Positions 2,566 to 36,200 of a stretch of DNA of 46,527 nucleotides are shown piece by piece. This stretch comes from a virus. The notes beneath the pieces were generated by a model. It ran no database searches, was not told where the DNA came from, and worked only from the letters and a program-made list of their open reading frames with translations. Position 1 is the first letter of the stretch; each line of letters begins with the position of its first letter. Location of the stretch: the IMG/VR virus record IMGVR_UViG_3300029787_000090, positions 1-46,527 of that record; one strand, 5' to 3'. The position numbers were made by a program, and so were the translations under genes.

Positions 2566-4229
2566 TGAGTTTGCCAGAAATAGTTAGGGATGCTTACATT
2601 GATTCCAAAAATTCAGAAGCTGCATACTCTTTCGCTAATTGGGCTAGGCATGCTAATTATGATCAAGTTGTTTCTGCATACGCTAATTGTCACAATGATC
2701 CTAATATTGACGATACCTTTATTCGCACTCTTGGCCAGCTTGATAGGTATTATCTTGGCGTTTTTTTGTGCAATCGCCACGACATGTTGCATCCTTGGAT
2801 ATATGAAAGATGCCGTGAAGTCGAAAGTGACAAAGATAGAAGACTCGATTTATGGGCACGTTTTCACTATAAAAGTTCTATAATAACTTATCTTGGTTGT
2901 ATTCAGGAAATACTATGTAATCCAGATATAACAATAGGAATACTATCTTATTCTGCAAAACAGGCTAAGCCATTCCTTAGACAGATAATGCAAGAGCTTG
3001 AATCAAACGAAAAGCTTAAAAGTTTGTATCCTGATATACTTTACGATAAACCAAAGCAGTACGCTCCTAAATGGGCAGAAAACGAGGGGCTTTGTGTTAA
3101 AAGAAAATCAAACCCTAAAGAACAAACAGTAGAGGCGCATGGCCTTGTAGATGGCCAACCAACAGGTAGGCACTTTGGTTTGATTATCTATGATGATGTT
3201 GTTGTGCAAGAGAGCGTATCAACTCCAGAACAGATAGCAAAGACAACTACTCAGTGGGAGCTGTCATTAAACCTTGGCTCTACACACAGCCCTAGGTATC
3301 AATACGCAGGAACTAGGTATTCTTATGGTGACACATACGGAACCATTCTACAAAGAGCAGCGGTAAAACCCAGAATACATACAGCTACTCATAATGGTCA
3401 GATGGATGGCATACCAGTGTTTCTTGAAGAAGATCGTTGGGAAGAAATAAAAAAAACTACATCTACTTATACTGTAGCTTGTCAGCAACTGCTTAACCCT
3501 ATTGCGGGAAGTGACGTATCGTTTAAGTCCGAATGGTGGAGAGAGTGGGAAGTTAGGCCTTACACAATGAACGTGTACATTATGGTTGACCCTGCTAGCT
3601 CAAAAAAGAAAGAGTCGAATAGAACCGCTATGTGTGTAGTTGGTGTAGATGCCAACTATAATAAATTTCTTTTAGATGGTGTTTGTCATAGAATGACCCT
3701 TTCTGAAAGGTGGGATTTTTTAAAAAAGTTAAGGGCTAAATGGAAAAGATCACCTGGAATTAGAGAAGTAAAAGTTGGTTATGAAAGATACGGCGCACAA
3801 AGTGACATAGAACACTTTAATGAGATGATGAGAATAGAGGGAAGCAACTTTCCTATATACGAATTAAACTGGGTTGGTGGAGGCGGATCACAATCTAAAA
3901 AGGACAGAATACAAAGATTAGAACCAGACTTAAAAGACGGATCTTTTTTCTGGCCTTATCCAACAGACAAAAAAATGCTTACATCTTTGCAGATGGACGT
4001 AATGGATAGAAAACAAGACTTTCTTATTTCTAAAAAAATTATGTGCAAAGATGAAAATGGAAGCTTATATGATCTTACTAAGTGGGTAAGAGATAATGAG
4101 TATAATCTTTTTCCAACTATACATCCAGATTTCTTGGATGCTTTATCTAGAATTTATGATATGGATGCTACGCCTCCAATTTCTAGAGTCTATAGAAAAC
4201 TGGAGCCTGAAGCTGAGGCAGCATATTAA
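2565..4229 (+). CDS. terL: Terminase large subunit (ATPase and nuclease)
   Basis: This 554-residue protein is the DNA packaging motor. The ATPase half shows the terminase-type P-loop variant RFHYKSSI (99-106, in place of a classical GKT) and a Walker B LIIYDD (206-211). The nuclease half has the expected RNase H-fold acids: D342 in MVDPAS, E407 in VGYER, and D522/D525 in PDFLDAL near the C terminus. The length suits podovirus-type large terminases. It starts at GTG 2565, overlapping the upstream stop by one base, and ends by overlapping the next ATG. The downstream cut mode (cos, headful or terminal repeats) cannot be read from the sequence. Confidence 0.93.
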   Translation: MSLPEIVRDAYIDSKNSEAAYSFANWARHANYDQVVSAYANCHNDPNIDDTFIRTLGQLDRYYLGVFLCNRHDMLHPWIYERCREVESDKDRRLDLWARFHYKSSIITYLGCIQEILCNPDITIGILSYSAKQAKPFLRQIMQELESNEKLKSLYPDILYDKPKQYAPKWAENEGLCVKRKSNPKEQTVEAHGLVDGQPTGRHFGLIIYDDVVVQESVSTPEQIAKTTTQWELSLNLGSTHSPRYQYAGTRYSYGDTYGTILQRAAVKPRIHTATHNGQMDGIPVFLEEDRWEEIKKTTSTYTVACQQLLNPIAGSDVSFKSEWWREWEVRPYTMNVYIMVDPASSKKKESNRTAMCVVGVDANYNKFLLDGVCHRMTLSERWDFLKKLRAKWKRSPGIREVKVGYERYGAQSDIEHFNEMMRIEGSNFPIYELNWVGGGGSQSKKDRIQRLEPDLKDGSFFWPYPTDKKMLTSLQMDVMDRKQDFLISKKIMCKDENGSLYDLTKWVRDNEYNLFPTIHPDFLDALSRIYDMDATPPISRVYRKLEPEAEAAY

Positions 4230-4402
4230 TGGCAAGAACTAGAAGAATAGGCAGAAAAACATATAGGTCTAGGCGTGTAGCTTATCAAATGACGAACTCT
4301 AAAAAGTTCTACGAAAAACAACCAAGGGCATTTCCTTATGGAGAGTTTCCATATGTTCAACCCGAATATTGGGTTGCTGGATATTGCGAGAATGAACTAT
4401 GA
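4229..4402 (+). CDS. 57-residue basic N terminus, aromatic C terminus protein
   Basis: This small reading frame begins MARTRRIGRKTYRSRR and ends with a Tyr/Pro/Phe-rich segment and GYCENEL. Start and stop both overlap neighbours (TAATG with the terminase, ATGA with the next gene), strong support for a real, translationally coupled gene. The first 16 residues hold seven Arg or Lys. I do not recognise the family. A nucleic-acid or capsid-binding role is possible but not shown. Confidence 0.7.
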   Translation: MARTRRIGRKTYRSRRVAYQMTNSKKFYEKQPRAFPYGEFPYVQPEYWVAGYCENEL

Positions 4403-4764
4403 AAAAATTATTATTAGCTCTAGCATTTGCATCTGCTCCTCTAATGGCGCAGACTCCGCCTATAGGTATTAAACCTCTTAACGTACAGATGCAGTTATTC
4501 TGCGCTGATTCGTTTGAATTTTTGATGAACGTTCTTGCGGCTGACTTCAAAGAGTATCCTATTATGATTGGCTACCTTAAAGAAGAGCCTGACAATGCTC
4601 ACACCTTTATTTATTTTGTTAACAAAGAAATGACTACATCAAGTTTAGTTGTATCGAAGAAAAGCGCAGACAGAGAGCAAGCCTGTATAATCTGGTCAGG
4701 TAAATCACCTAGCGGAATGGCGTTTTCTGTAAATCCTAACCCTATGTTTGCTGACGAACTGTGA
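4399..4764 (+). CDS. Exported small protein with signal peptide
   Basis: The 121-residue product begins with a textbook signal peptide: MKK, a hydrophobic run LLLALAFASAPLM, and a likely cleavage after Ala17 before QTPP. The mature part has two cysteines (in LFCADS and EQACIIW) that could form a disulfide in the periplasm. It sits just before two membrane-anchored proteins (4761-5401), so it may belong to a lysis or envelope-associated group. No enzyme motif is visible. Export is well supported; function is unknown. Confidence 0.75.
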   Translation: MKKLLLALAFASAPLMAQTPPIGIKPLNVQMQLFCADSFEFLMNVLAADFKEYPIMIGYLKEEPDNAHTFIYFVNKEMTTSSLVVSKKSADREQACIIWSGKSPSGMAFSVNPNPMFADEL

Positions 4765-7186: not shown

Positions 7187-8217
7187 AAGAGTACATGAAA
7201 GACTGTGTTAAGTCTTTTTTTATTGTATTTGCATACATATTTATTTTATTTTGCATTATGTATGTTTCAGTAGGCAAAGCAGATTTTAAATCTACTTTTC
7301 TTATTGGAGAGCCAGAAGGTAGGTATATATCACCATATTCCACTCTGTCTTGGTTATCAAACGATTTAGATGACAATTGGAGAAATCGTGTTTTAGACAT
7401 GATTAGGTCGGACACCCACGCTGATATTATGGCTAGAAGCACAGCAAAAGACTTTGGTAGAGTTGATGGGGTTCATAGAGATAGTTGGCGCAATCGTATT
7501 AGCATCTTGCGTTCTAATGGTATTGCTCCGGTAGTATGGATGATAAGCGATGATAGTCCAGATGTATATGCAAGAGGTTTAGATAACCAAATTGATTACC
7601 AAAGTCAAGTTGTTTCTGCGGTTGATGACGTTGTTAGTCATTATGTGGTTTGTCTTGAGTGTGACGAATATTATAGCCCTGCACAGGTATCTAAACTAAT
7701 AGGGGAACTTAGGAAAAAAACAGATAGACCAATAGGGGTGCATCTAAAGCCTGGGGTTAAGGCTGAGTATGTTAAGGATGCAGATATAATATATCTTCAA
7801 ACAGGATTTAATCTTAATGAAAAACAGTTCCGACAACAAATTGAGAATGCGCTTAGGTTTGGAAAACCAGTTGTCGTATCTGAGTATGAATTACAAGGAA
7901 CGTCAGAGAGAGCGAGAGCGTTTGGCGACATTGCTTGCTCCTATCCCGGAGTTGTCGGAACAGGAAACGGAAGAGGAACTACGTCTTGCCAGACCCTAGA
8001 GTGGGGTCAAAAAAGAAAGAAGTGGCATCAAAGCCACGAAAAGGAAATAGTCGTTTCTGGGATCGTAGTTGCCACCCTCTTCGCAATGTTAAAGGAAAAG
8101 CCGAAACTAAAACTACACTTTGATGACAACGGTTACGAGTTAGGGCTAAAATCTGGAGACTACAACTTAAGGTACTCCGAAGATAGTATAGCGGCTACAT
8201 ACAGGATAGAATTTTAA
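7183..8217 (+). CDS. Signal-anchored TIM-barrel, glycosidase-like protein
   Basis: This protein has 344 residues. Residues 11-30 form a hydrophobic signal anchor (SFFIVFAYIFILFCIMYVSV). Residues about 75-265 look like a TIM barrel of alternating strands and helices. Acidic residues sit at likely strand ends: E159/E162 in CLECDEYY and E234 in VVVSEYEL, placed as the acid/base and nucleophile glutamates of clan GH-A glycosidases would be. A second hydrophobic segment (289-304, IVVSGIVVATLFAML) precedes a small beta-rich C terminus. It could be a membrane-tethered cell-wall or glycan hydrolase, perhaps for lysis. The fold is inferred by eye. It overlaps both neighbours (ATGA, TAATG). Confidence 0.6.
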   Translation: MKEYMKDCVKSFFIVFAYIFILFCIMYVSVGKADFKSTFLIGEPEGRYISPYSTLSWLSNDLDDNWRNRVLDMIRSDTHADIMARSTAKDFGRVDGVHRDSWRNRISILRSNGIAPVVWMISDDSPDVYARGLDNQIDYQSQVVSAVDDVVSHYVVCLECDEYYSPAQVSKLIGELRKKTDRPIGVHLKPGVKAEYVKDADIIYLQTGFNLNEKQFRQQIENALRFGKPVVVSEYELQGTSERARAFGDIACSYPGVVGTGNGRGTTSCQTLEWGQKRKKWHQSHEKEIVVSGIVVATLFAMLKEKPKLKLHFDDNGYELGLKSGDYNLRYSEDSIAATYRIEF

Positions 8218-8804
8218 TGGCAACAATTACATTACGAGAAACAAAAGGTAGTCCATTATCATTTGTGGAAATGGATGCTAATCTTACTAATCTTAACAAC
8301 GATAAGCAAGAAGTTATACCTAATCTTGCAACTGTAGATTCTATAGATGCTACCACTGATAAGTTGCTATTTTACGATGTTTCTTCTGGAGCAGCTAGAG
8401 CAATTCTTCCGCAAGATGTTTTAGCTTTTGTTAATAGGACTTTGATGGTCAAGTGTGTTGCTGACGGTATTGGGCCTTCAGTAGGTAATGGAATTACTCA
8501 TGTTACTATTCCATCTACTCTTAACGGTAAAAATCTTTTGTCTGTTGAGGCGCATGTTTATACTGCCGGAAGCAGTGGAAGTTTGACAAATATCCAAATA
8601 CATAACTTAACTAAAGGTTTGGATATTTTATCGACTCCAATTACAATAGACCTTAACGAAAAAGATTCTAGTACTGCCGCAACGCCTGTTGTAATTGGCG
8701 GAGATAATAATGTTTCTACAGGAGATGTTCTTAGAATAGATGTAGATGCTGTCTCTACCGGAACTTTGGGACTTGAAATAAGAATGGTGTTTACCTCTCC
8801 ATAA
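8217..8804 (+). CDS. Tail fibre-type structural protein
   Basis: The product (195 residues) begins with MATITLRETKGSPLSFVEMDANL, a header typical of phage tail fibre and fibre-associated proteins, in which a conserved SFxExDxNLxxL motif binds the fibre to its base. The rest is beta-rich with many Thr, Ser, Val and Gly, as in fibre shafts or knobs. It starts the fibre region and overlaps the glycosidase-like gene by TAATG. The header supports the call; the exact place in the particle is unknown. Confidence 0.75.
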   Translation: MATITLRETKGSPLSFVEMDANLTNLNNDKQEVIPNLATVDSIDATTDKLLFYDVSSGAARAILPQDVLAFVNRTLMVKCVADGIGPSVGNGITHVTIPSTLNGKNLLSVEAHVYTAGSSGSLTNIQIHNLTKGLDILSTPITIDLNEKDSSTAATPVVIGGDNNVSTGDVLRIDVDAVSTGTLGLEIRMVFTSP

Positions 8805-8821
8805 ACTAAAGGAGTTAATTA

Positions 8822-9667
8822 ATGGAGTCAATCCAAATGGGTGTTCGTTCAGAACCCCCTTCTGTTAGCGTGTTAAAGCCTATTCCAGAAATTGTTTGCG
8901 GCGTTAATGAAGATGTTGAAAAAATTAGAAGCAACATTGAAACAAACATCAAGAGAGGGTTACCGCAAGTACGGCCTTATGAAACACAGTGGGATAAAGT
9001 GGTCGGAATCGTTTTAGGTGGCCCTTCACTAAAAGATACTTTTGATGATTTGTTAGAAAAAAGAAAAAATGGGATGCCAGTAATTACTGTTAATGGCTCT
9101 CATAAGTATTGCGTTGACAACGGATTAGAGCCTTCTGGAATGGTAATGTTGGATAGCAGAGAATTTAATAATAGATTCGTGCATCCATTGTTAGATGATT
9201 GTAAATATTTTATTTCATCTCAGTGTCATCCTTCTGTTTTTGAGACTCTAAAAGGTAACAGTGTTTGGATTTGGCATTGCGCGGGTGACGATAATTTTGA
9301 TTTGTTACAAGAGGTTTATGGAAAAGAATACTATCCTGTAATGGGCGGCGCAACAGTTGCATTAAGGGCTGTTCATTTACTTAGGATGTTAGGGTTTCGT
9401 AAATTTGAAATGTATGGTTTTGATAGTTGTATTAAAGGAGATCATCATGCTTACGAGCAACCCGAAAATGATGGAGAGCAGGAGTTAGATGTGGTTGTAG
9501 CGGGAAAAGAATTTAGATGTACTGCCGCCCACTATCATCAAGCAAAAGAGTTCGTAGATATGATATCAAAAACTGGCGAACACTATGATTTGGCTGTGCA
9601 TGGAGATGGCCTTATTTCACACATAATTAAAAATCCAGATTCATTAAAGTTTAAGGAGGACGTTTAA
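8822..9667 (+). CDS. DUF115/MptE-like Rossmann-fold protein
   Basis: This protein of 281 residues resembles DUF115 proteins, related to 6-hydroxymethylpterin diphosphokinase MptE and to the Maf flagellin glycosyltransferases. Evidence: VVGIVLGGPSLKDT (60-73, nucleotide-type loop), PVITVNGSHKY (86-96), SGMVMLDSREF, and the family-like stretch GGATVALRAVHLLRMLGF (175-192) then KFEMYGFDS (194-202). It lies between two structural genes and has a good ribosome binding site (AAAGGAG before 8822). DUF115 proteins in phages and bacteria often occur with surface sugar genes, so transfer of a sugar-like group is plausible. The family is likely; the substrate is unknown. Confidence 0.75.
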   Translation: MESIQMGVRSEPPSVSVLKPIPEIVCGVNEDVEKIRSNIETNIKRGLPQVRPYETQWDKVVGIVLGGPSLKDTFDDLLEKRKNGMPVITVNGSHKYCVDNGLEPSGMVMLDSREFNNRFVHPLLDDCKYFISSQCHPSVFETLKGNSVWIWHCAGDDNFDLLQEVYGKEYYPVMGGATVALRAVHLLRMLGFRKFEMYGFDSCIKGDHHAYEQPENDGEQELDVVVAGKEFRCTAAHYHQAKEFVDMISKTGEHYDLAVHGDGLISHIIKNPDSLKFKEDV

Positions 9668-9668
9668 A

Positions 9669-10112
9669 ATGGCGGCTACAGCATGGAGTTTTTATAATTC
9701 CTTTAGGGAATATTTAGGCAACGGCCAGTTTGATTTAGATGGTACAGGCACAGGGTTTTACATGGCTCTGCACACAAGCGCTGCAAGTGCTAATGTTAAT
9801 ACCAAAACACTATCTACACAGGCATCTTTAGGTAACGAGGTTTCCAATGGTAATGGTTATGCTACTGGTGGAGCATCAGTAACGGCAAGAACTTGGGCTT
9901 CAGTTGCAACCGATAAATATCGTTTTGATTCGACTGCTGTTGTATGGACTGCAACAGGCGGAACTATTGCAAATGTTAAATACGCTGTTATATATCAAGC
10001 AGGAGGTAAATTAGTTTGTTTTTCTAGGCTAACTACTTCCCAGTTTACATTGGCACAGGATAATACTTTGACAGTTACTCCTAGTGCTAGTGGCATTTTT
10101 GAATTATCGTAG
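9669..10112 (+). CDS. Conserved structural protein in the fibre region
   Basis: The product is 147 residues, beta-rich and low in charge, with the opening MAATAWSFYNSFREYLGNGQFDL and a patterned run of Thr, Ala, Ser and Val. It resembles small phage structural proteins that precede tail fibres in marine podoviruses; I recall the SFYNSFREYLG/ALHTSAA theme but no function. The ribosome binding site GGAGG lies inside the end of the previous gene, one base before its ATG region. Likely a virion component. Confidence 0.65.
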   Translation: MAATAWSFYNSFREYLGNGQFDLDGTGTGFYMALHTSAASANVNTKTLSTQASLGNEVSNGNGYATGGASVTARTWASVATDKYRFDSTAVVWTATGGTIANVKYAVIYQAGGKLVCFSRLTTSQFTLAQDNTLTVTPSASGIFELS

Positions 10113-10121
10113 GGGGTTATT

Positions 10122-10997
10122 ATGGCACTAGAAAGCGCAACATATATCAGTCAACTTGTAGATACAAATCCCACTGCAACTGATCCTATATCTCAGGGAG
10201 ATGATCACCTTAGACTTATAAAGTCTGTGCTACAAGATCAGTTTACCACACTTGGTGCGGCGGCAGTGACTACGACTGCGGCGGAACTCAACCTCTTGGA
10301 TGGAGTTACAGCAAGCACCACTGAGTTAAACTATCTTGATATCACAACTCTTGGTACTTCTGAAAACTCAAAAGCAGTTACTCAGACCGCAGGCGGTGCT
10401 ATTACTATTGGCGCTACCGGTAATAATGAAACCATAGATATTGCATCACATGATCTTGTAGATGGCGGTCTTAAGTTAGCAGGGACATTGGTTACATCAT
10501 CAGCGGCTGAAATAAACAAACTTGACGGATGCACTGCTAGTACCGCAGAATTAAACTACGTAGATGTATCATCTGTTGGTACAGTAGAGGCATCAAAAGC
10601 CGTTACTGCCGATGGCTCTGGAATTGTTAACCATGCTGATTATGTGGTTCAGCGACCAAACTTTAAAGATTACGCAGAAACTCATAATGCTATTGGTGGA
10701 ACCGGAGGAGGAACTCAAGATTTTGACCTTACTTTAGGTAACGTACACAGTGCTACTGTGGATACAAGTGCTAACACATTTACTTTTAGTAATCCCCCCG
10801 CATCTGCTAATTCTGGTTCATTTACTATGCTCCTAACTAATGGAGGTTCTCAAACTGTAAACTGGCCCGGAAGTGTTGATTGGGCAGGAGGATCGGCTCC
10901 TACTTTAACTACTAGCGGTAAAGACATACTTACTTTTACCACAATAGACGGTGGCACTACTTGGTATGGGTTTGCGGCTGGCCTAGCAATGGCTTAA
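10122..10997 (+). CDS. Tail fibre protein with LDG/ELNYLD repeats
   Basis: These 291 residues hold a typical fibre header (ISQLVDTNPTATDPISQGDDHLRLIK) and then repeats of the form AAELNLLDGVTAST-ELNYLD (residues about 49-75), with a second copy as AAEINKLDGCTASTAELNYVD (about 128-148). These repeats are the shaft repeats of many phage tail fibres. The C-terminal part (170-291) is a beta-rich Gly/Ser/Thr domain with NSGSFTMLLTNGGSQTVNWPG, similar to other fibre tips. ATG 10122 has a strong ribosome binding site (AGGGGG). Confidence 0.85.
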   Translation: MALESATYISQLVDTNPTATDPISQGDDHLRLIKSVLQDQFTTLGAAAVTTTAAELNLLDGVTASTTELNYLDITTLGTSENSKAVTQTAGGAITIGATGNNETIDIASHDLVDGGLKLAGTLVTSSAAEINKLDGCTASTAELNYVDVSSVGTVEASKAVTADGSGIVNHADYVVQRPNFKDYAETHNAIGGTGGGTQDFDLTLGNVHSATVDTSANTFTFSNPPASANSGSFTMLLTNGGSQTVNWPGSVDWAGGSAPTLTTSGKDILTFTTIDGGTTWYGFAAGLAMA

Positions 10998-11009
10998 TGG
11001 AGAACAAAT

Positions 11010-12191
11010 ATGCCTTTAGGAGCAGAAAAAGCAGCGTTATTTGCCGCCGCTGCCGGAAGCGGTAACTATTTTGGAGATGGTTCTGATGGTGCGGTAACTA
11101 CTTCTGGAAATGTAACATTTACAGTTGCAAACAAAAGTGGCTCTTACGATGGTGATATGTATGTTGCTAACTATTCAAGTTTAACAATAGGAGCAGGGCA
11201 TACTGTTACAGTAGATCAACCATGTCGCGGTTTACTTGTTTATGTAAAAGGTGATTGTACTATTAGTGGTACTTTGAGCATGGCTTTAAAGGGCGGCAGT
11301 TCTAATCCTACCTCGTCTGGTGGTAATGATAGTTCTGCTGTTAGTTCTACTGGATTAAGATTGCCTATGTTAAAATCAGGTTCTTCTGAAACTTTAGCCG
11401 CCGCTGATTTTGCAGGATCTGGTAGCGCCGCAGTTGCGGCTGTTGCTAATCAAACTGGTATTGATGGCGATGGTAAAATTTATACTATTGCTAAAGCGGG
11501 AGCGTCAGGCGCTGCGTCAGCAAACACTCCTAGTTGCGGCAATTCAAGCTCCCCCGGAGGAAACGCAGGAAACACTGGAAGCGCAGGGTCTTCTAGTCTT
11601 CCAATTAGCACTGGAGGAGGAGGTTCTGGAGCGGCGGTTTATATGTATGGTGCCCCTTCAAGCACATCTGGCGCAGGCGGCGCAGGTGGTTGTTTTTCTG
11701 GTGGGTCAGGAGGCGGAGGGGCCGTGGCTCGGCATTCAGCATATCCCGGAAACGACGGAGCAGATTATGGCGGGCCAGGTGGAGCCGGGGGAACCGCAGG
11801 TGGCTCATCTGGAGCGGCAGGTGGAGCGGGAAATCCTTCAGGGACCAGTAACACAGAAGGCGTAAGTTTTACTGAGGCAGAAGATGGTTCGGGTGGTCTT
11901 TTAATTCTTATTGTTAAAGGTAATCTTACTGTGAATAGTGGCGGCAGTATTTTGGCTACTGGAGCGGCAGGATCAACTAATGGCTCAGGCTATGCGGCGG
12001 CAAATAGTGGCGGCACAGGCGGGGGGGCTATACTAATACTACATGCAGGAACTTATACCAATAACGGAACAGTTGCCGCCGCAGGAGGAGCCTCCGGAAA
12101 TGGGACTGCCGGATGTACTGGGGCTAACCATATTTCTCCGGGCGGAGCAGGTGGAGCCGGGGGAGTTTTTGTAGAAGTAGTAGATGAGTAA
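11010..12191 (+). CDS. Glycine-rich tail adhesin, likely receptor binding
   Basis: This 393-residue protein has a short structural N terminus (residues 1-120: MPLGAEKAALFAAAAGSGNYFG and a beta-rich region with TVDQPCRGLLVYVKGDC), then a long Gly-rich region (about 120-285) with runs such as GGGGSGAAVYMYG, GAGGAGGC, GGSGGGG and GGPGGAGG. This pattern resembles the stacked polyglycine helices of T-even gp38-type tip adhesins, whose loops between Gly runs contact the receptor. The C terminus (300-393) again is Gly-rich. It is the last gene before the oxygenase cassette and is a natural candidate substrate. The comparison with gp38 is by sequence character only. Confidence 0.7.
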   Translation: MPLGAEKAALFAAAAGSGNYFGDGSDGAVTTSGNVTFTVANKSGSYDGDMYVANYSSLTIGAGHTVTVDQPCRGLLVYVKGDCTISGTLSMALKGGSSNPTSSGGNDSSAVSSTGLRLPMLKSGSSETLAAADFAGSGSAAVAAVANQTGIDGDGKIYTIAKAGASGAASANTPSCGNSSSPGGNAGNTGSAGSSSLPISTGGGGSGAAVYMYGAPSSTSGAGGAGGCFSGGSGGGGAVARHSAYPGNDGADYGGPGGAGGTAGGSSGAAGGAGNPSGTSNTEGVSFTEAEDGSGGLLILIVKGNLTVNSGGSILATGAAGSTNGSGYAAANSGGTGGGAILILHAGTYTNNGTVAAAGGASGNGTAGCTGANHISPGGAGGAGGVFVEVVDE

Positions 12192-12203
12192 GTTATCATC
12201 TGT

Positions 12204-12866
12204 ATGAATATAGTAGACAATTTTTTACCAAACCGTTATAAAAAAGAACTTGTAGAAATTATTGCTAGTCATAATTTTCCTTGGTTTTATCACGATTCAA
12301 TGAGTTATCGTGGTAATGATGAGGCTAAAAAACCGTCTATTGTAGATAAAAATATAAAAGAAACCTCTCAGTTTGTTCATTTTTTTATGCTTGATACAGG
12401 AGAATTTTATTGTTCCGATTATTGGGAAAGATTAAAACCTATGTTTTGGCTTTTTGCTGATAAAACCAATATAGATTATAAAAAAATTGTTAGATGCAAA
12501 GCCAATCTTATATTGAAAGATAAAGATTTTAAAATGGGCCAATACAATTTTCCACACACAGATATAAATGAAGATAATGGAAAAGAATATATTACTGCTC
12601 TTTATTATTTAATTGATTCTGACGGGCCAACTTATGTCTTTGATGAAAATTTAAGAGATAATTTAGATAAAGATATTTGGACTAGATCGTGTAATCCTTT
12701 ATCAAACAAAGACTATTCACCACTACCAAAGTCTGTTCATATTAAAGATAAGTCCGAAGTAACTGAGAATAGATTAGTTTATTTTGACGCTTATCAATAT
12801 CACGCATCAAGCAATCCAATTAATTACTCAAGAAGGATAGTAATCAATTTACTAATGGAACTATAA
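12204..12866 (+). CDS. 2-oxoglutarate/Fe(II) oxygenase, first copy
   Basis: The 220-residue product is a 2OG-Fe(II) dioxygenase of the prolyl-4-hydroxylase-like type. Iron ligands are visible as HTD (H118, D120) and H200 in YQYHASSNP, with R210 ten residues after the second His to hold 2-oxoglutarate (SRRIVINL). It begins with MNIVDNFLPN, a typical N terminus of this family. Such enzymes hydroxylate protein side chains or small substrates. The gene is very A+T-rich compared with the adhesin before it, and starts 12 bases after that gene. Substrate unknown; virion protein hydroxylation is inferred from place. Confidence 0.85.
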   Translation: MNIVDNFLPNRYKKELVEIIASHNFPWFYHDSMSYRGNDEAKKPSIVDKNIKETSQFVHFFMLDTGEFYCSDYWERLKPMFWLFADKTNIDYKKIVRCKANLILKDKDFKMGQYNFPHTDINEDNGKEYITALYYLIDSDGPTYVFDENLRDNLDKDIWTRSCNPLSNKDYSPLPKSVHIKDKSEVTENRLVYFDAYQYHASSNPINYSRRIVINLLMEL

Positions 12867-12868
12867 TT

Positions 12869-13375
12869 ATGTATGCTAAAATAGAAAATAACCAAGTATC
12901 GGCTTATCCGTATACATTGGATAATTTAAGATCAGATAATCCTAAAGTATCGTTTCCACAAGACTCTTTATCAAGAGATGAGATCGCATCTGGGTATGGG
13001 GTTGTAGTTGTTGAAAATACTCCCGCACCTACTGGTAAAGGACAGATGGCCGTTGAAGGCACTCCTGAACATGATAACGGAACTTGGAAAAGAACTTGGT
13101 CTTTGGTTCCAAAAGAAAAATCTCAGGTTTCTCCAGACGAAGTTACTAAAGTTGAAAAGCCAGTTAAAGATGGATGGGAATATAATGTTCCAGATATAGA
13201 ATGGGACGGCTCTCAATGGATTCAGGTTTGGACTGGTAAAGAAAGAAGTTGGATTGAAAACAGATTAGAGGCTTATGGATCAGCAGAAAATCAGATAGAA
13301 CATATTGTTGAAAATGGGCTAGACTCTTGGAAGTCTAAAGTAGACGAAATAAAAGCGAAGTATCCAAAATCGTAA
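12869..13375 (+). CDS. Hypothetical fibre-associated protein
   Basis: This 168-residue protein opens with MYAKIENNQVSAYPYTLDNLRSDNPKVSFP, a header I recall from phage tail fibre assembly or fibre-associated proteins of cyanophages. It has many Trp (W in TWKRTWSLV, DGWEYNVPDIEWDGSQW, QVWTG), and a helical C terminus (SWIENRLEAYGSAENQIEHIVENGLDSW). It lies between the two oxygenase genes, so it may be the substrate, partner or neighbour by chance. No catalytic motif is visible. Confidence 0.65.
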   Translation: MYAKIENNQVSAYPYTLDNLRSDNPKVSFPQDSLSRDEIASGYGVVVVENTPAPTGKGQMAVEGTPEHDNGTWKRTWSLVPKEKSQVSPDEVTKVEKPVKDGWEYNVPDIEWDGSQWIQVWTGKERSWIENRLEAYGSAENQIEHIVENGLDSWKSKVDEIKAKYPKS

Positions 13376-13377
13376 AA

Positions 13378-13527
13378 AAAATTAACATTGAAGAAAAGGA
13401 AGTATTTGTCTATGACAATGCTTTTGGGTTTTCTAATAGCCAAATATTACTTACCTTTTTACTAAACTCTTTTTTTAAACCAGTTGGTATAGATGCTCCA
13501 GATAGCAATGTAAAACATCATACTTCA
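13378..13527 (+). other. In-frame coding-like extension of the second oxygenase lacking a start codon
   Basis: Read in the frame of the next gene, these bases give KINIEEKEVFVYDNAFGF and LLTFLLNSFFKPVG, the kind of N-terminal domain expected for a dioxygenase. The frame is open from 13339 and contains no ATG, GTG or TTG until ATG 13528. Candidates for a start are ATT 13381 or ATC 13369, which are rare, or a start hidden by an indel in the run of eight A at 13374-13381. The upstream gene ends inside this A run. Confidence 0.55.
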
Positions 13528-13917
13528 ATGATGTCTGCTTATAGCAAAGATGATGTAGTTAATTCAAATTTTTTTAATTATCTTTCAGTAGACATAAAAA
13601 ATAAACATTCAGTTTCTATAGACAGTATGTTTAATTGCAACATTAATCTGGTTACTCCATCTGACAGGTTTCATATTCATACTGATTCTGGCGGCGGTTC
13701 TAGAGTTACTGCGTTGTATTATCCAAGCAATAATTGGAATATTGAGTTTGGAGGAGACACTTTATTTTTAGACCAAAGTGGTGAGAATATAGAATTTTGT
13801 TCTCAGTACAAAACAGACAGATTAATTATATTTGACTCTAGTATTCCTCATATAATAAGACCATCTACAAATCTATCTCCGTATTATAGGCTTTCTTTGG
13901 CAATGAAGTTTAAATGA
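13528..13917 (+). CDS. 2-oxoglutarate/Fe(II) oxygenase, second copy
   Basis: From ATG 13528 the product is 129 residues and holds a second 2OG-Fe(II) oxygenase core: HTD (His at 13678, Asp at 13684) within FHIHTDSGGGSRV, and the distal His at 13849 in SIPHIIRPS, followed by an Arg (YYRLSL). The family normally has a longer N terminus, and the in-frame sequence back to about 13378 supplies one, so the real protein is probably about 178 residues. Its end overlaps the radical SAM gene by ATGA. It differs clearly from the copy at 12204, so this is not a recent duplication. Confidence 0.75.
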   Translation: MMSAYSKDDVVNSNFFNYLSVDIKNKHSVSIDSMFNCNINLVTPSDRFHIHTDSGGGSRVTALYYPSNNWNIEFGGDTLFLDQSGENIEFCSQYKTDRLIIFDSSIPHIIRPSTNLSPYYRLSLAMKFK

Positions 13918-14705
13918 TTCCATCATATCTTAATCCAGAAGGAATTCATTGGACAGTGTATTTGGGGGAAACAGTTGGCTTGCCTAATGTTTGCGATATG
14001 GATTGTCCTACGTGCGTTGATGATTACTTCAGTTCAGATAACAATCTTGTTGTTGAAGATTTAAGAAATAAAAGAGCATCTAATTGGAAATTTCCAGAAG
14101 ATTGGGAATTTAAAGAAGATTGGAAATTATCTATAAAAAGATTTTTTTCAAAAAGAAAAGAAAGTATAATTAGTTTTGTGTTTACTGGTAGAGGTGATCC
14201 TTTATTTTATATACCTGTCATAAAGGCATATATGCAAGTGTACAGGGATTTAGGGATAAAAGGACATGGAGTTATAAACACTAGCGGTTCTTTGCTTACT
14301 AAAGATATGTTATTTTCTTTAAAAGATTTTGGCATAAATGAAATAGTAATAAATCCTTTAGCATCAAATTTTAATTCTTACGATAAGATTTCTTTAGTAA
14401 AAAAAGAAATGGATGTTTCTGTAGAGACTCCTCTTATACCGCATTGCAGAGATAAAATATTTTCTATGCTTCCAATAATAGAAAATATAGGAGTTAAGAA
14501 TTTAATTCTTTCATTTGCGGAACTCTATTCTACAAATGGCGTAAACAAAATGCATAGATATACAGGAGAATCTCCTGAAATAATAAAACAAAATGGCATG
14601 TCTTTTGTTGATGATAAAAAAATTGGAAAAGAAATTAAAGAAGAGGTTTTAAAAAAACGTTACTCTTATCCTGTGTACATTACAAAAGCAAATATTCTTA
14701 TATGA
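13914..14705 (+). CDS. Radical SAM enzyme
   Basis: The 263-residue protein carries the radical SAM signature C27-x3-C31-x2-C34 (VCDMDCPTC), which binds the 4Fe-4S cluster that cleaves S-adenosylmethionine. A GGE-like motif follows as FVFTGRGDPLF (about 88-98). A TIM-barrel pattern of strands and helices continues with HGVINTSGSLL, INEIVINPLA and VSVETPLIPH. It does not have the QueE-type C-x3-C-x2-C surroundings or an extra Cys-rich SPASM domain that I can see. It overlaps the second oxygenase by ATGA, so the two are probably co-translated. Substrate unknown; peptide or nucleotide modification are both possible. Confidence 0.8.
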   Translation: MIPSYLNPEGIHWTVYLGETVGLPNVCDMDCPTCVDDYFSSDNNLVVEDLRNKRASNWKFPEDWEFKEDWKLSIKRFFSKRKESIISFVFTGRGDPLFYIPVIKAYMQVYRDLGIKGHGVINTSGSLLTKDMLFSLKDFGINEIVINPLASNFNSYDKISLVKKEMDVSVETPLIPHCRDKIFSMLPIIENIGVKNLILSFAELYSTNGVNKMHRYTGESPEIIKQNGMSFVDDKKIGKEIKEEVLKKRYSYPVYITKANILI

Positions 14706-14730
14706 ATAGTTAATAACTTAGAGGTTTTAA

Positions 14731-15633
14731 ATGTCTATATCATCTTGGTCTGCAACTGGAGGAGGATGGGACGACCCACTTTTTTCTAGGGCTTGGGACG
14801 GCCCTGCTTTATCACCAGACAAGGGCGATCTAACATTAAGTTCTTCAGTACCCTTAATTAGTAGACAGTATTTTATATCTCCCGGCGTTGCTAATCTTGA
14901 GATATTGCAGTCTTATGAATGGGATCAATTAACCAGTGCGTGGAGAGATTCTGCGGGTTATTGGAATACCGGCCCTGTTCCTCAGATGGCTGTTGGGTCA
15001 GATGATTCTGTTGATAAAGCAGATTTAACATTTACTGCTTATTCTCCTGATATAGGGAGAATGTATAATTTTGTAATAACTGCGGCTACTCAAACTTTAA
15101 CAGGGTTTGCTCCAGTTGATGGTACTGGGTTTGTTATATCTCCAGATAATGCATCTATACAAATACTCCAAACATATAGTTGGGATGACTATGGAGGTAT
15201 TTGGTCTAATGCCGCTACAAACTGGAATGATGTAGCATTTGCTCCTAGTGCTGTAGAAACAGGTCAGAACCAACCGGACGCAGGTTCCTTATCTCTTACT
15301 GGATCTTCGCCTGATTTTGCTTTAGCGCAACTTTGGTACGTTCCTTCAGGAAGCATGTCCTTGACAGGGTTCTTGCCTCTGTCTACTACAGGGCATATAT
15401 TTACTCCAGATAAAGCAGATTTAACTGGTCTTGACTTTAACAGGTGGGATGATGCTTCTGGAGGTTGGTCTAGTAGTTCAGATACTTGGGCAACTGGAAC
15501 GCTTTTTCCAAGTGTTGGAGTCACTTATACCTTCACTATAGATTCAGCAGGAAACTTAGTCTTTGTTCCTTATGAACCGCAGTGGCCTTATGTTGGTGAT
15601 CCTAAATATGTTCCAGAAATAATAGTCATATAG
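14731..15633 (+). CDS. Structural protein with repeated W-x6-W-x6-W motifs
   Basis: The 300-residue product has three copies of Trp-Asp-x5-Trp-x6-Trp: W64/W71/W78, W151/W158/W165 and W239/W246/W253. The copies are 87 and 88 residues apart. A related pair, W6/W13, lies at the N terminus. Between them are beta-rich Ser/Thr/Gly segments with repeated ISPD/TPDKADLT themes. This looks like a modular beta fibre or decoration protein. It has a moderate ribosome binding site (TTAGAGG) and lies just before the head genes. I do not recognise the family. Confidence 0.7.
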   Translation: MSISSWSATGGGWDDPLFSRAWDGPALSPDKGDLTLSSSVPLISRQYFISPGVANLEILQSYEWDQLTSAWRDSAGYWNTGPVPQMAVGSDDSVDKADLTFTAYSPDIGRMYNFVITAATQTLTGFAPVDGTGFVISPDNASIQILQTYSWDDYGGIWSNAATNWNDVAFAPSAVETGQNQPDAGSLSLTGSSPDFALAQLWYVPSGSMSLTGFLPLSTTGHIFTPDKADLTGLDFNRWDDASGGWSSSSDTWATGTLFPSVGVTYTFTIDSAGNLVFVPYEPQWPYVGDPKYVPEIIVI

Positions 15634-30255: not shown

Positions 30256-33200
30256 ATGGCATCAAATTCAGATGTTGTAAATAATAATACACAAGGCCTT
30301 ATTGGTAGAGCTCAGTCAGGACCATTTGGTTCGGCGTTTATATCTAATCAAAGTGTAGATCAACCAGCAGAAGATGAAGCTGGTAGATTTGGTGCTTCGG
30401 CTGATCAAATGCAGTACCTTCTTGGAGCTTCTTTAGAGTTTTTATCTGAAGGGGTAGGCTTTGATAATCTTTCAGCTTATTGGGGCGCTGTAAGAGCTAA
30501 GAACAAAGCACAGTTAGAGCAGTATGATAGATTAACATTTGAAAAAGCTCGTAAGGAAGGGAATGATTTATCTAAATATTTTCTAGATTTATTAGTTATT
30601 GATGGCGCAACTTTGATTACATCAGCGCTTGCTGCTACAGCAACAACAGCATTAACCGGCGGCGGAACTTTAGCAGCTTTATCTGGAGCTGGTATTGCAT
30701 CGTTTGTTTTGAATGCAGGAGATACATTTGCAGAATCTGTTGACGCAGTAGGCAAGGAAAATGTAGACAAGGGTCTTGTTCTCGGAGCCTCTCTTCTTAT
30801 GGCAGGGCTTGACGCAGCTCTTCCAGGAAAGATTGGTGAAGCATTTGTAAGTAGATCAATAAGGGAAAAAGTTAAAGCTTCAGCAGCAAAGAACTTAGCA
30901 AAAAATAAGTGGTTGACTAGAGCGGTAAAGGTTGGTTTTCAGAGTGGTCTAACTGAATCCGGAACTGAAGCGATGCAAGAAGTTCTTCAGGCTGCTACTA
31001 TTAATGCTCAAGAAGGTAAAGACCCGTTTGATTTTTCAGAAGAACAAATTGCTCAATTTCAAGAAGCTGCTTGGGCTGGTGGATTCTTAGGATTTGGCGC
31101 TGGCGCATCAACATCAGGAGTCGGCAGAAGCTCTGCTCGTAAAATTATTGGCCGAAAGGAAGAGGCCGTTGCTCAACTTGATTCTGAACTTGAATTAAAA
31201 ATTGCAGAACTTGAGGCAGAAAGAACAAGTCTTGCTGAGCAAAAAAGAAATTTTAAAATTCAAAAAAGATCTAATGATATTAGAAAAGAAATATCTGAGC
31301 TAAGAGTAGAAGCAAATAAAAAGAAAGCTAAGATATGGGGAGCTGATTCTGAAGCCGCTATAAATAAGATTGTTCCTATAAAAGAACAAGAAACTGAATC
31401 TGAAGCTGCACCAGAAGCTGCACCAGAAAAAGAAAAAACTTTAGCCAAGATCATGGCTGAAGACCCCAGGACCTCTACTCCTCTTAGAACTCAGCCAGGC
31501 GCAGTACTTCCAGAAGGAACACAAAGAGGCCCATCTCCAACTCAAGAAGAGATTAATGCTCGACTAGCTCAAGAACCGTCAGGCCCAACACAGGCTGACG
31601 TAATGCCAGATGTAATGCCAGGAACTCCAGTTGCACCGAGACCTGGAACTGCTACGGCTGAAGCTGCCGCTAGGGCTGACGAAGGATTAGCGCAAGAGGA
31701 ATTCGATCCTTCTGCTGCTTTAGGAACTCCTGTTGCCCCAAGGGAAGGAACTGTTACAGCTAACAGAGCTGCTGATGAGGCCGCTGCTAGAGCGGATGCA
31801 AGGGGGTCATTCCCTATGGGAGAAGACCCTTCTGTTTTTTTAGATTCAGCACCAGATCAGACCGGGGCTGGCCCACAGGGTAGGCCTCGTAGAAGTTTTG
31901 CTGCTATAAGGGCTGCAAGAGAGGCTAGAGATCAAAGCCCTCAAGTAATGAACAGACCTGTCATCAATACAGTTATTGGTGATGGCGAGAATGTTTTGGT
32001 TGATGGTGATGTTCTTATTACTGCCACAGATATCGAAGAAGCTAAGTTTGCTAAGGCTAGTAGAGAGCTAGAAGATATAGCTATGGAAGCTGAATCAAAT
32101 GCTTTTGAGCAAGCAGAAGCTGATGGCATGGATTATCCAGCAGCTGTTGCTGCGGCAGAGGCCGCTCGTAATACTGTCCTTCAAGAAGGAGGAGCAAGAA
32201 GGACAAGGGTGTACTCTTCAAGAGCCGCTAGATTACAGGCTCAGAGGGAGGCAGCAGAGCAGAGGCAAAAAAGAGCGGATGATCTTACTGCTAGAGCAAA
32301 AGCTAGAGTAGAAGAAGAAGAAAGGTTTGAAGCAAAAGAGACAGCAAAGTCTAAGGAAGTTGCTATTTCTATGGCTGATGACTTTATGGATTTTCTTGAT
32401 ACTAATGCAACTGTTGAAGAAATACAGGCCAGACGCAATTCAGATATTGCAATTTTATCTGACAGAATTGGAGGCCAAGCAGCTGTTAATCAGTACAGAA
32501 AGAATGCAAGCAGAGATAGAATAAATAAAATACTTGAGGCTAGAGGTCCAGAAGGAGGAACAGAGGCTCAGGTAGGAGAGGTTAAAGACCCGAAACCTAC
32601 TAAGAAGAAAGCAACCAAGAAGAAAGCAGCTAAGAAACCCGCTGAAGAAGTCCCACCTAAAGGTGGTGTAGGCTCCTCCGGTGGGCCTACCCAAGCAGAA
32701 GTCACGCCACCCGCACCTGAAGCAGCTGGACCGACTGGACCCGCAGCATTTCAATGGGAAGAAGGATCAACGGTTGAGTTTGAAGTTGAAGACGAAGCGG
32801 GTAGTACGTCTGATTTACCACCTGATTGGAAGGAAGGCGATCCGACAACAATAGAAGTTACTGTATCGGGAGAAGTTATAAGACAAGTTGGTTCAGATGG
32901 AACTGTTGCCGAGTTTGTAGAGCGTGTATTACCAAACGGTCAACGTTATAAGGTATATCTGACTATGAACGGGAAACCAACTGGAGATGCAAAAAATGTC
33001 CGGCTTGCTACCCCTAAAGCAGATTCTACACCTACCCAAGCAGATGCTACCCCTCCCGTACCAGATACCCCCACTGAGACTGCGCCAGTTGCTGCTGAAG
33101 ACACGGAAGCTGCACCCGCTACCACCCCACAGGGTGAGGACACAACTCCTGCTCAGGAGGCTGAGACTAAGCCTGACGAGACTGCTGAAGAAACAGGTAA

Positions 33201-36200
33201 AGCTACTACCCCACCTGATGTAGCAGTAACAGATGTTGATGAAGATCAAACTCAGGATCAACAGATTGCTGAGATGAGAGCCAAAGAGCAAGCAACTGTA
33301 GCTAGGGAAACAGCAGATCAAGAAGCTGATGCTGAATTCCAAGCGGGAACAGATGACACTGGCCCTACTGTTGAAGATGTTGAGGGGGGTGTTGATATAC
33401 CAGAAGCTGGTACTATAGCTGCTACTCCAGATTTGGAACAGGTAGATATTGCTGATGAAACTGTTACAGATGAAACAGCTATTGCTGAAACAGTTATAGA
33501 AGAGCCTACTCCTACAGAAGTTCCAGTCCTTGAGTATGCAGAAACAACTGCCAATCCAGATGGCGTTCCCATGAGGATTTATGAGGACCCGGATAATCCT
33601 AATCTGAATATTGTTGAAGTAGACGGAAAGCCATTTAAGCAGAAATATAAAGATAGGGCTAGAGCTGTAGCATTTGCAAATAGGTACACACGTCCACGAC
33701 CTACCGAAAAAGCAGCAAAGGCTGCTCCTAAAGCCAGACCAGAAGGTAAGACCTATACTGGCCCCAAACCAAAAGGAGCAAGCGAATCGTTAGTTAAATG
33801 GATGGGAGGTACTGCGCCATTTAGAGCTACCATTGGAAAGCAGAGAGCATCACAAGCAAGGAATGTAGGGCTTGACCCAGATCAGTATACAACTGAAGAA
33901 GAACTGTATGATGCAATTGTTGCACAGGTAGAAGCTGAGCCAGTTGAAGTAGTAGAGCCAGCAGCTGACATAGCAGAGGAAGTTCAGCGGGTAGCTGAAG
34001 AGATCGTTCCAGAGACTAATCTTGAAAGGATCGCTAGAGAAGCAACAGAGCGTAGAGTTAAAGAAAACGCTATAATGGTTGAGCAAGATTTTACCCCTCA
34101 AGAAATAGCTGAGATGGAACAGTTTGAAGATCGGAATGAAGAAGTAGAGTCTGGTCTTATGGAAGATATTGATGCTGATATTGAGGCAGAGATTGAAGCA
34201 CAAGAAGCTGAGTCTGAAGCAGCTAGAGCAACAAGAAAGCTAGAGATAGAATCAGAAAAGGTTAGCTTTGAAACTGTAGACAACATGGAGGTTGCTGACT
34301 TCTTGCAACTTGCTCAGACTCCTAGAAAACCTGGATGGAGCAAGCAGCAGCTAGTACAGATAGCTAACAATATTCAATCTAATGATCCTACTGTTTCTTT
34401 TGATACCAAAAAGAAAAGAGCTGACCTTGCTCAGGAACTTATAGCTTGGAAAGAATCTGGCGTTACAATAGATGACTCAATACTAGAGCCGGAATACCAG
34501 GATGACGTAACATCTGATGGTGATTTTTATTCTGCACCAAGTGACGATACTGATGTTACTTACGGTTTCGATAATAAGAAGTCCACCCTTAAAGATGTAA
34601 GGGTATCTGAAGAAGAGATATCAAACGTCGAAAGGTCAATCAATAATAATCTAGAGTTAATGTTCAGCAAAAGAAAAGCTGCAATATTAAAGAGGCTTAA
34701 GTTTATTAATATGATCAACTCTTCAGAGGCTAACAGCTTGGGAATAGAGGGAGACTCTATAGCTAGCTATGCATCTGGAGATGTAAAAGTTTATTTTGTG
34801 CTAGAAAGAATTGCTAAGTTTGCAAAAGCTCAGAACAAAGATGTAGATAAACTTACCAGATCATTGATCATGCATGAAGTTGGAGTTCATGCAGGAAAGA
34901 ATGTATTCAGCGGTCAAGAGTTTGATCTGGTTCTAGATCAGGTTGTTAAACTGTACGATCAAAAAGACCCAACATTTGTTAATGCATTTAACGTTGTTGC
35001 TAAAGATTACCCAGACCTTACGTTATTTGAAAGAAAGTTTAATGAAGAAGTTCTTGCTCATGTCATAGAGTCAAAGGCATATGAGATGGAGACAATTAAT
35101 AAATCATTCTTTGATAAACTTAAGACTGCGTTCCAGAAGTTCTTTGAAAAATTATTCTACACTGTTAGCATGGATAAGACCAGAGCAGATAACCTTACTC
35201 CAGATGTAACAGCTGAAGATATGTTTAATCTTATTGCTGGTCACTCAATGAGGAATATATATTCTTATGCATTGAAGAGGCATGGTGATAGCAAGAACTT
35301 TTCTAATGTAAGAACTAGGAATAGAGACAGGTTTATTGAAAACTCTGTAGTTAAAACTCCAATGTTTCATGGAGGATACTATAATTTTTCAGCACCAGTC
35401 CTAGATAAGACCGAGCTTGGGCTTCATGTGGGAACAGAAAAAGCAGCTCTTGATAGAGTCTTCGGTGATGGAGAAAAACTTAAAAAAGGATACATAAAAG
35501 TAAAGAATCCATTTTATTCTGAAGACCTAAACTTTTGGGAATCTTGGGGGTCTTGGTTGCGTGGTATAAATTATCAGTATGAAAAAGATTTGATAGATGA
35601 TACTACTTACAGAAAGTTATTGAAAGTTGTTGCAGAACATAAAGCAGCATACAACAAATTAGTATCAGTTGGTTCTCCAACAATGGCTGATAGAAAGCAT
35701 TCTTTACAAAAACAGTTTTCAGAAGATATGAGAAATGCGCTTATACAGCTTGGGTATGATTCTATATCTTACATAAATCTGGCTGAAGATTTAGGAAGCA
35801 CAAGCTATATTCTTCTTAAAGACAACCAGTTCAAAGATGTTGACTCCCTAATGTTTAGGTCAGGGACCAATGTTTTTATGGATAAGAAGGTTGTAGAGCA
35901 GGAGCCTGATCAAGCGGTTGTTGAACCAAAGAAGATATCAGATATTGCAGGGCCTCAAGTTACTAACACTCGCAAAGCCCAAGGCAAAATGTTCCAAGCT
36001 CTCAAAAAAGTTCAGAGAGCAATTGAACCATTGATGACCATCGAAGGTTACGATGAACTTGAAACTCAGCGCATGCTTGCAAAGGGTGAGATTGGTAAGT
36101 GGCATAACTATGGCAGGGTAGTATTCGATGTGCTATATCAAGCCAACGCCAAAGAGAAGAAGGCTATACTTAAATACTTTGAGACAAGAGGCGCATCACC

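Follow-up and report, generated by a model that had tools for sequence, protein, structure and literature searches.

Exchange of a glycine-rich tail adhesin gene together with 2OG-Fe(II) oxygenase and probable radical SAM genes in a viral genome, as indicated by comparative sequence analysis

Marine phages are rich in 2OG oxygenases and tryptophan halogenases, and there is no agreement on the roles of these enzymes. A cyanophage cluster with a halogenase and 2OG enzymes has been proposed to decorate capsular polysaccharide or to make a secondary metabolite (PMC7824862), DNA repair and the control of 2OG levels are among the roles proposed for 2OG genes of cyanophages (PMC3037559), and an antibiotic-like protection has been suggested for halogenases (PMC2984593). 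2OG proteins of marine phages structurally resemble EGLN3 (PMC12774648). In the literature, which was covered in part, these enzymes are treated as auxiliary or as capsule/metabolite enzymes, no link to adhesin exchange was found, and nothing was found on FlmC as an oxygenase or on hydroxylation of phage fibres. Neither the enzyme families nor their occurrence close to fibre genes in cyanophages is new. What is new, within the literature searched, is that adhesin and enzymes are exchanged as a single block, together with the directional enrichment and the radical SAM variant described below.

Cultured phages with a comparable layout exist. Sf-FP1 encodes Gly-rich tail fibre proteins (23-25% Gly) followed by a halogenase and several 2OG genes, while in syn9 and S-SZBM1 the fibre-assembly genes come first, then halogenases and then 2OG genes. 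Gly-rich fibre proteins are present in two of these three phages, the two whose sequences were checked. The fibre proteins of Sf-FP1 and syn9 do not match the N-terminal family of the adhesin studied here, and the association with the enzymes therefore recurs with a second adhesin type. In the actinophage DSL-LC01, a halogenase is located downstream of collagen-like fibre genes. The layout is absent from HTVC008M, Syn1, S-SCSM2R and CP21, in which the 2OG or halogenase genes are located at a distance from the fibre genes.

The sequence analysed is IMG/VR virus record IMGVR_UViG_3300029787_000090, a stretch of 46,527 nucleotides (hereafter the window), in which portal and terminase hits were identified. 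The cassette at 12204-14705 encodes a 2OG-Fe(II) oxygenase, a conserved, probably fibre-associated protein, a second 2OG oxygenase and a probable radical SAM protein, all on the plus strand. The four ORFs listed in the initial annotation (12204-12866, 12869-13375, 13528-13917 and 13914-14705) were all recovered, and all four genes are under purifying selection (dN/dS 0.09-0.18). Upstream on the same strand are a tail fibre gene (10122-10997; phrog_9017 and others, tail fiber, E 1e-13) and a tail adhesin gene (11010-12191) whose product is 24% Gly and is the proposed substrate of the enzymes. Elsewhere in the window, 30256-38355 encodes a protein of 2699 amino acids with no PHROG hit at 0.01.

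Oxygenase 1 (12204-12866) belongs to the phrog_274 type (1.3e-29), a family present in 28 cyanophage records; a Pfam search gave no hit. Its H118, D120 and H200 form the HxD...H triad, followed by R211, and these four residues are invariant across 14 homologues. Members of phrog_274 are named DNA endonuclease V in many records, several cyanophage records among them, despite an intact 2OG triad. As all aligned members have the triad, this name (DenV) appears to be an annotation error propagated as a label. The next gene (12869-13375) encodes a conserved protein of 168 amino acids (cluster c3) that belongs to unnamed phage families (phrog_9114, 1.5e-9; phrog_4998). It follows the adhesin in loci both with and without 2OG genes; since it is present behind the same adhesin where oxygenases are absent, it is probably a member of the fibre set, with a putative fibre assembly-like role, rather than of the enzyme set.

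The identification of the product of 13528-13917 as a second 2OG enzyme holds, while the ATG at 13528 taken as its start makes the protein about 50 residues too short. PF13640 (2OG-FeII_Oxy_3) is matched above its cut-off of 27 bits by both the short form (28.9 bits) and the extended form (27.8 bits), and the HTD motif and the distal His are conserved in the homologue on L002, a related contig described below. The frame is open upstream of the ATG as far as 13339, and its conservation with L002 extends back to about 13372-13381. Between the two sequences, the stretch 13372-13527 shows a dN/dS of 0.069, and 19 of the 30 differences fall at third positions. Residues 1-181 of the extended protein align to residues 2-179 of a 181-residue FlmC oxygenase model (E 3.2e-13). 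No ATG, GTG or TTG is found in this stretch, and both phages keep GTAAAAAAAATTAA near 13372-13381. From the conserved frame, the end-to-end alignment and the lack of a standard start together, oxygenase 2 is placed at 13381-13917 on the plus strand, starting near 13372-13381 at a codon other than ATG, GTG or TTG. AUU at 13381, five bases past the upstream stop, is our guess for the start. Coding sequence that is conserved in both phages and has no standard start suggests that translation begins non-canonically, or by reinitiation past the upstream stop. A -1 frameshift fusing the 12869 protein with oxygenase 2 was considered and judged unlikely, as no slippery heptamer lies ahead of the stop.

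The start of the fourth gene (13914-14705) overlaps the stop of oxygenase 2 by ATGA. Its product possesses an exact CX3CX2C motif (C27-C31-C34), which is conserved in L002, and a GRGDP motif, while PF04055 (Radical_SAM) scores 15.8 bits against a cut-off of 29.5. In a Foldseek search with a model of low confidence (pLDDT 58, pTM 0.57), the best matches are radical SAM enzymes (PqqE at 1.5e-5, also viperin and SuiB), and unrelated barrels also appear. Only four Cys are found in 263 residues, with no auxiliary-cluster cysteines and no SPASM domain. Motifs, sub-threshold hit and model together make this small protein a probable, not a certain, radical SAM enzyme. Its one relative, 81% identical, is encoded by L002. 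No further relative came out when viral contigs were scanned by protein, by alignment and with the CDxDCPTC DNA pattern, or when genome contigs were scanned; five other pattern hits were dismissed as short chance frames. The three-gene order of the initial annotation, radical SAM gene included, was seen in this one other contig only. In contig L086 (7242-13478), an adhesin gene is followed by genes for a radical SAM protein of 420 amino acids, a Cys-rich protein and six 2OG-class proteins. This radical SAM protein (Pfam 1e-10) was considered as a relative of the window protein and rejected, as the two are not homologous by BLASTP.

Combinations of radical SAM and 2OG enzymes are typical of peptide tailoring. 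Maturation of a short phage-encoded peptide into a RiPP-like product would account for this pairing and for PqqE and SuiB being among the structures that the weak model matches best. It is nevertheless highly improbable, for once oxygenase 2 is extended the largest intergenic gap is about 25 bases, which leaves no room for a precursor ORF, and the radical SAM protein possesses neither a SPASM domain or auxiliary cysteines nor a recognised leader-binding domain. For the small product offered as an option in the initial annotation, no precursor-peptide gene is visible in the cassette.

Low G+C content had been taken as a sign that the cassette was acquired. The three enzyme genes do have only 28-31% G+C, as against 38% for the protein between them, 50% for the adhesin and 39.8% for the whole window. 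The gap in GC3 is far smaller (0.19-0.23 in the enzyme genes, 0.27 in the adhesin), and other window genes go down to 0.16-0.20. Composition alone is therefore insufficient, and it was dropped as proof of acquisition. Acquisition itself is borne out in two ways: cassettes differ between homologous backbones, and one and the same cassette occurs on different backbones.

The first of these situations is seen in the near relative L019, which matches the window by blastn at 8051-10690 (88.7% nucleotide identity) and at 14730-15490 (84.6%), with only partial adhesin similarity (70-78%) in between. The block that differs between the two, as delimited by blastn and by the gene content of L019, extends over 10690-14730. 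Its left breakpoint, at about 10690, lies inside the 3' part of the tail fibre gene 10122-10997, and its right breakpoint falls a single base ahead of the start codon of the gene at 14731-15633 (plus strand). This border gene encodes a Trp-rich (14 of 300) virion-region protein of cluster c12 conserved in L019, L022, L051 and L067. Its Trp residues show a repeat-like spacing, and in other phages, too, the island is bordered by homologues of this gene. In the same slot, L019 has a 2OG-like gene, an ORF of 169 amino acids, a halogenase-like gene (tryptophan-halogenase-like, flavin halogenase; assigned by membership in the halogenase cluster), a different Gly-rich adhesin gene, another 2OG gene, and genes for a conserved protein and for the fibre-associated protein. 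Further contents are found on the window's own backbone: two 2OG genes, a 2OG-like gene and a halogenase gene in L051, up to six 2OG genes and a halogenase gene in L022, and one 2OG gene in L052; no 2OG or halogenase set was found in the slot in L048 and L079.

The reverse situation is provided by L002 and L015. L002 is a 7.3-kb contig that keeps the gene order of the window, with an extra PKHD-like 2OG gene between the adhesin and oxygenase 1. It matches 11901-14689 of the window at 80-82% nucleotide identity, and its remainder is unmatched in the window. L015 contains the adhesin and the preceding fibre gene at 75-78% nucleotide identity to the window. The end of L015 is identical over 54 bases to the start of L002, and both come from the same metagenome; judged from their sequences, they very probably derive from one phage. 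Taken together, L015 and L002 carry the adhesin and cassette of the window (75-82% nucleotide identity) joined to a right-hand backbone that has no match in it. Since the same backbone occurs with another block (L019) and the same block with another backbone (L015 with L002), the genomic comparison shows adhesin and enzymes exchanged as one unit, the adhesin 11010-12191 included.

Linkage of this kind is to be expected, too, if the enzymes act on the receptor, modifying a host surface glycan or protein bound by the co-inherited adhesin and so blocking superinfection or the re-adsorption of progeny to debris, for this also predicts an adhesin-matched exchange. The capsule decoration proposed for the cyanophage halogenase/2OG cluster (PMC7824862) agrees with such a role, as does an MptE-like (DUF115) gene upstream at 8822. 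No glycosyltransferase or nucleotide-sugar gene was recognised within the block, however, and the gene at 8822 is common to the flanks of L019 and the window and thus stands outside the exchanged set, so that modification of the receptor is considered unlikely. The MptE-like gene in question (8822-9667, E 3.6e-19) lies among tail genes, and the MptE-like gene of L019 is likewise outside the exchanged block.

The adhesin was further studied as a family. Its AF2 model is good (pLDDT 83.6, pTM 0.86), a fold search of the PDB gave no match despite this, and the viral structure library returned weak collagen-like and Gly-rich matches only, with TM at most 0.38. In the phages collection, the region had no DNA match, and the adhesin and the radical SAM protein had no protein match. 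A profile of the N-terminal domain detected 73 loci on viral contigs, dereplicated to 50 groups, around which 2OG genes were identified by iterated profiles. Pfam confirmed representative neighbour clusters, among them Trp_halogenase at 1e-31, and halogenase-cluster genes are found near the adhesin in L019, L022, L033, L034, L039, L051 and L085. Across the 50 dereplicated loci, 2OG genes within 2 kb account for 31 of 143 genes downstream (22%) and 1 of 111 upstream (1%; Fisher p 1.2e-7), and within 8 kb for 53 of 397 downstream against 5 of 243 upstream (Fisher p 2.7e-7); as upstream coverage is smaller (195 versus 256 kb) and the sides differ in gene type, the test is one of asymmetry, not of mechanism. 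Farther downstream, the share declines to 12 of 111 genes between 2 and 4 kb and to 10 of 143 between 4 and 8 kb. At least 1 kb of downstream sequence is available in 44 groups, of which 18 have a 2OG gene and 26 have none within 8 kb downstream, and the adhesin therefore does not need a 2OG gene. Adhesin composition with and without a neighbouring 2OG gene was no different beyond chance, and no modification signature was found in its residues. In L071, the product of 3252-4403, right behind an adhesin-adjacent 2OG gene, is fusion-like, with a DUF6817 N-terminus and C-terminal 2OG-like motifs.

The highly variable content of the slot and the many loci with no 2OG gene could also reflect a recombination hotspot at which adhesin exchange brings in unrelated auxiliary genes, the oxygenases being directed at small molecules, at nucleic acid or at the 2OG pool and unconnected with the adhesin. 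2OG genes do occur elsewhere in cyanophages, where DNA repair or 2OG control has been suggested (PMC3037559). The cargo is non-random, however: one enzyme class makes up 22% of the genes in the first 2 kb downstream as against 1% upstream, halogenases repeatedly join it, and a similar layout lies beside an unrelated Gly-rich adhesin family. A hotspot of this kind is a rather doubtful explanation.

The reading we prefer, with a probability of roughly 0.45, is that the enzymes modify the co-inherited Gly-rich adhesin or fibre, the cassette supplying the enzymes of a module in which adhesin and enzymes are exchanged together. A single recombination event would bring in a receptor-binding Gly-rich adhesin along with the oxidative enzymes acting on it. 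While virions are being assembled inside the infected cell, both 2OG oxygenases would hydroxylate side chains of the new adhesin or of its fibre. The radical SAM protein would then make a further change by C-H chemistry, such as a crosslink, an epimer or a thioether, on the same polypeptide. These modifications may alter receptor specificity or the stability of the fibre tip. The activity of the enzymes, the adhesin as their substrate and the effect on receptor binding or stability are what we infer. The initial annotation had suggested a post-translational change of a virion protein, which fits the co-movement with the adhesin and the enrichment of 2OG genes beside its family; the modification itself is presumed. 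More tentatively, marine phages might in general tune receptor binding by post-translational oxidation of Gly-rich adhesins (hydroxylation, halogenation and radical SAM chemistry), each adhesin being inherited with its own enzymes as a swappable module. Enzymes that, in a single phage adhesin family and in certain cultured cyanophages, are encoded directly behind Gly-rich fibre genes and exchanged with them lead to a specific hypothesis, the tailoring of the receptor-binding tip or of its receptor. If true, this would add to phage host recognition a chemical layer invisible from the genome sequence alone, and the cultured phages with such a layout make it testable.

Compared with described proteins, the radical SAM protein resembles viperin, PqqE and SuiB in its CX3CX2C motif and perhaps in its predicted barrel, but it is shorter, has no SPASM domain and shows no detected sequence homology to them, the model being of low confidence. 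The catalytic segment of oxygenase 2 (101-165) matches HIF prolyl hydroxylases (EGLN) at E 0.002, a weak and short match that gives no substrate class. The extended oxygenase 2 aligns over its full length with the FlmC family oxygenase NF052475, yet at 50.1 bits against a cut-off of 240 it is not a member. The closest described systems are the cyanophage islands (syn9 gp41-gp54, Sf-FP1 93-100 and S-SZBM1 gp042-046). Unlike these islands with their tryptophan halogenase, the window has no halogenase, possesses a radical SAM gene and an adhesin of another family, and is a much shorter record (46.5 kb). The islands and the window are alike in having several 2OG oxygenases after fibre or fibre-assembly genes, and an oxygenase of the phrog_274 type is common to the window, syn9 and Sf-FP1.
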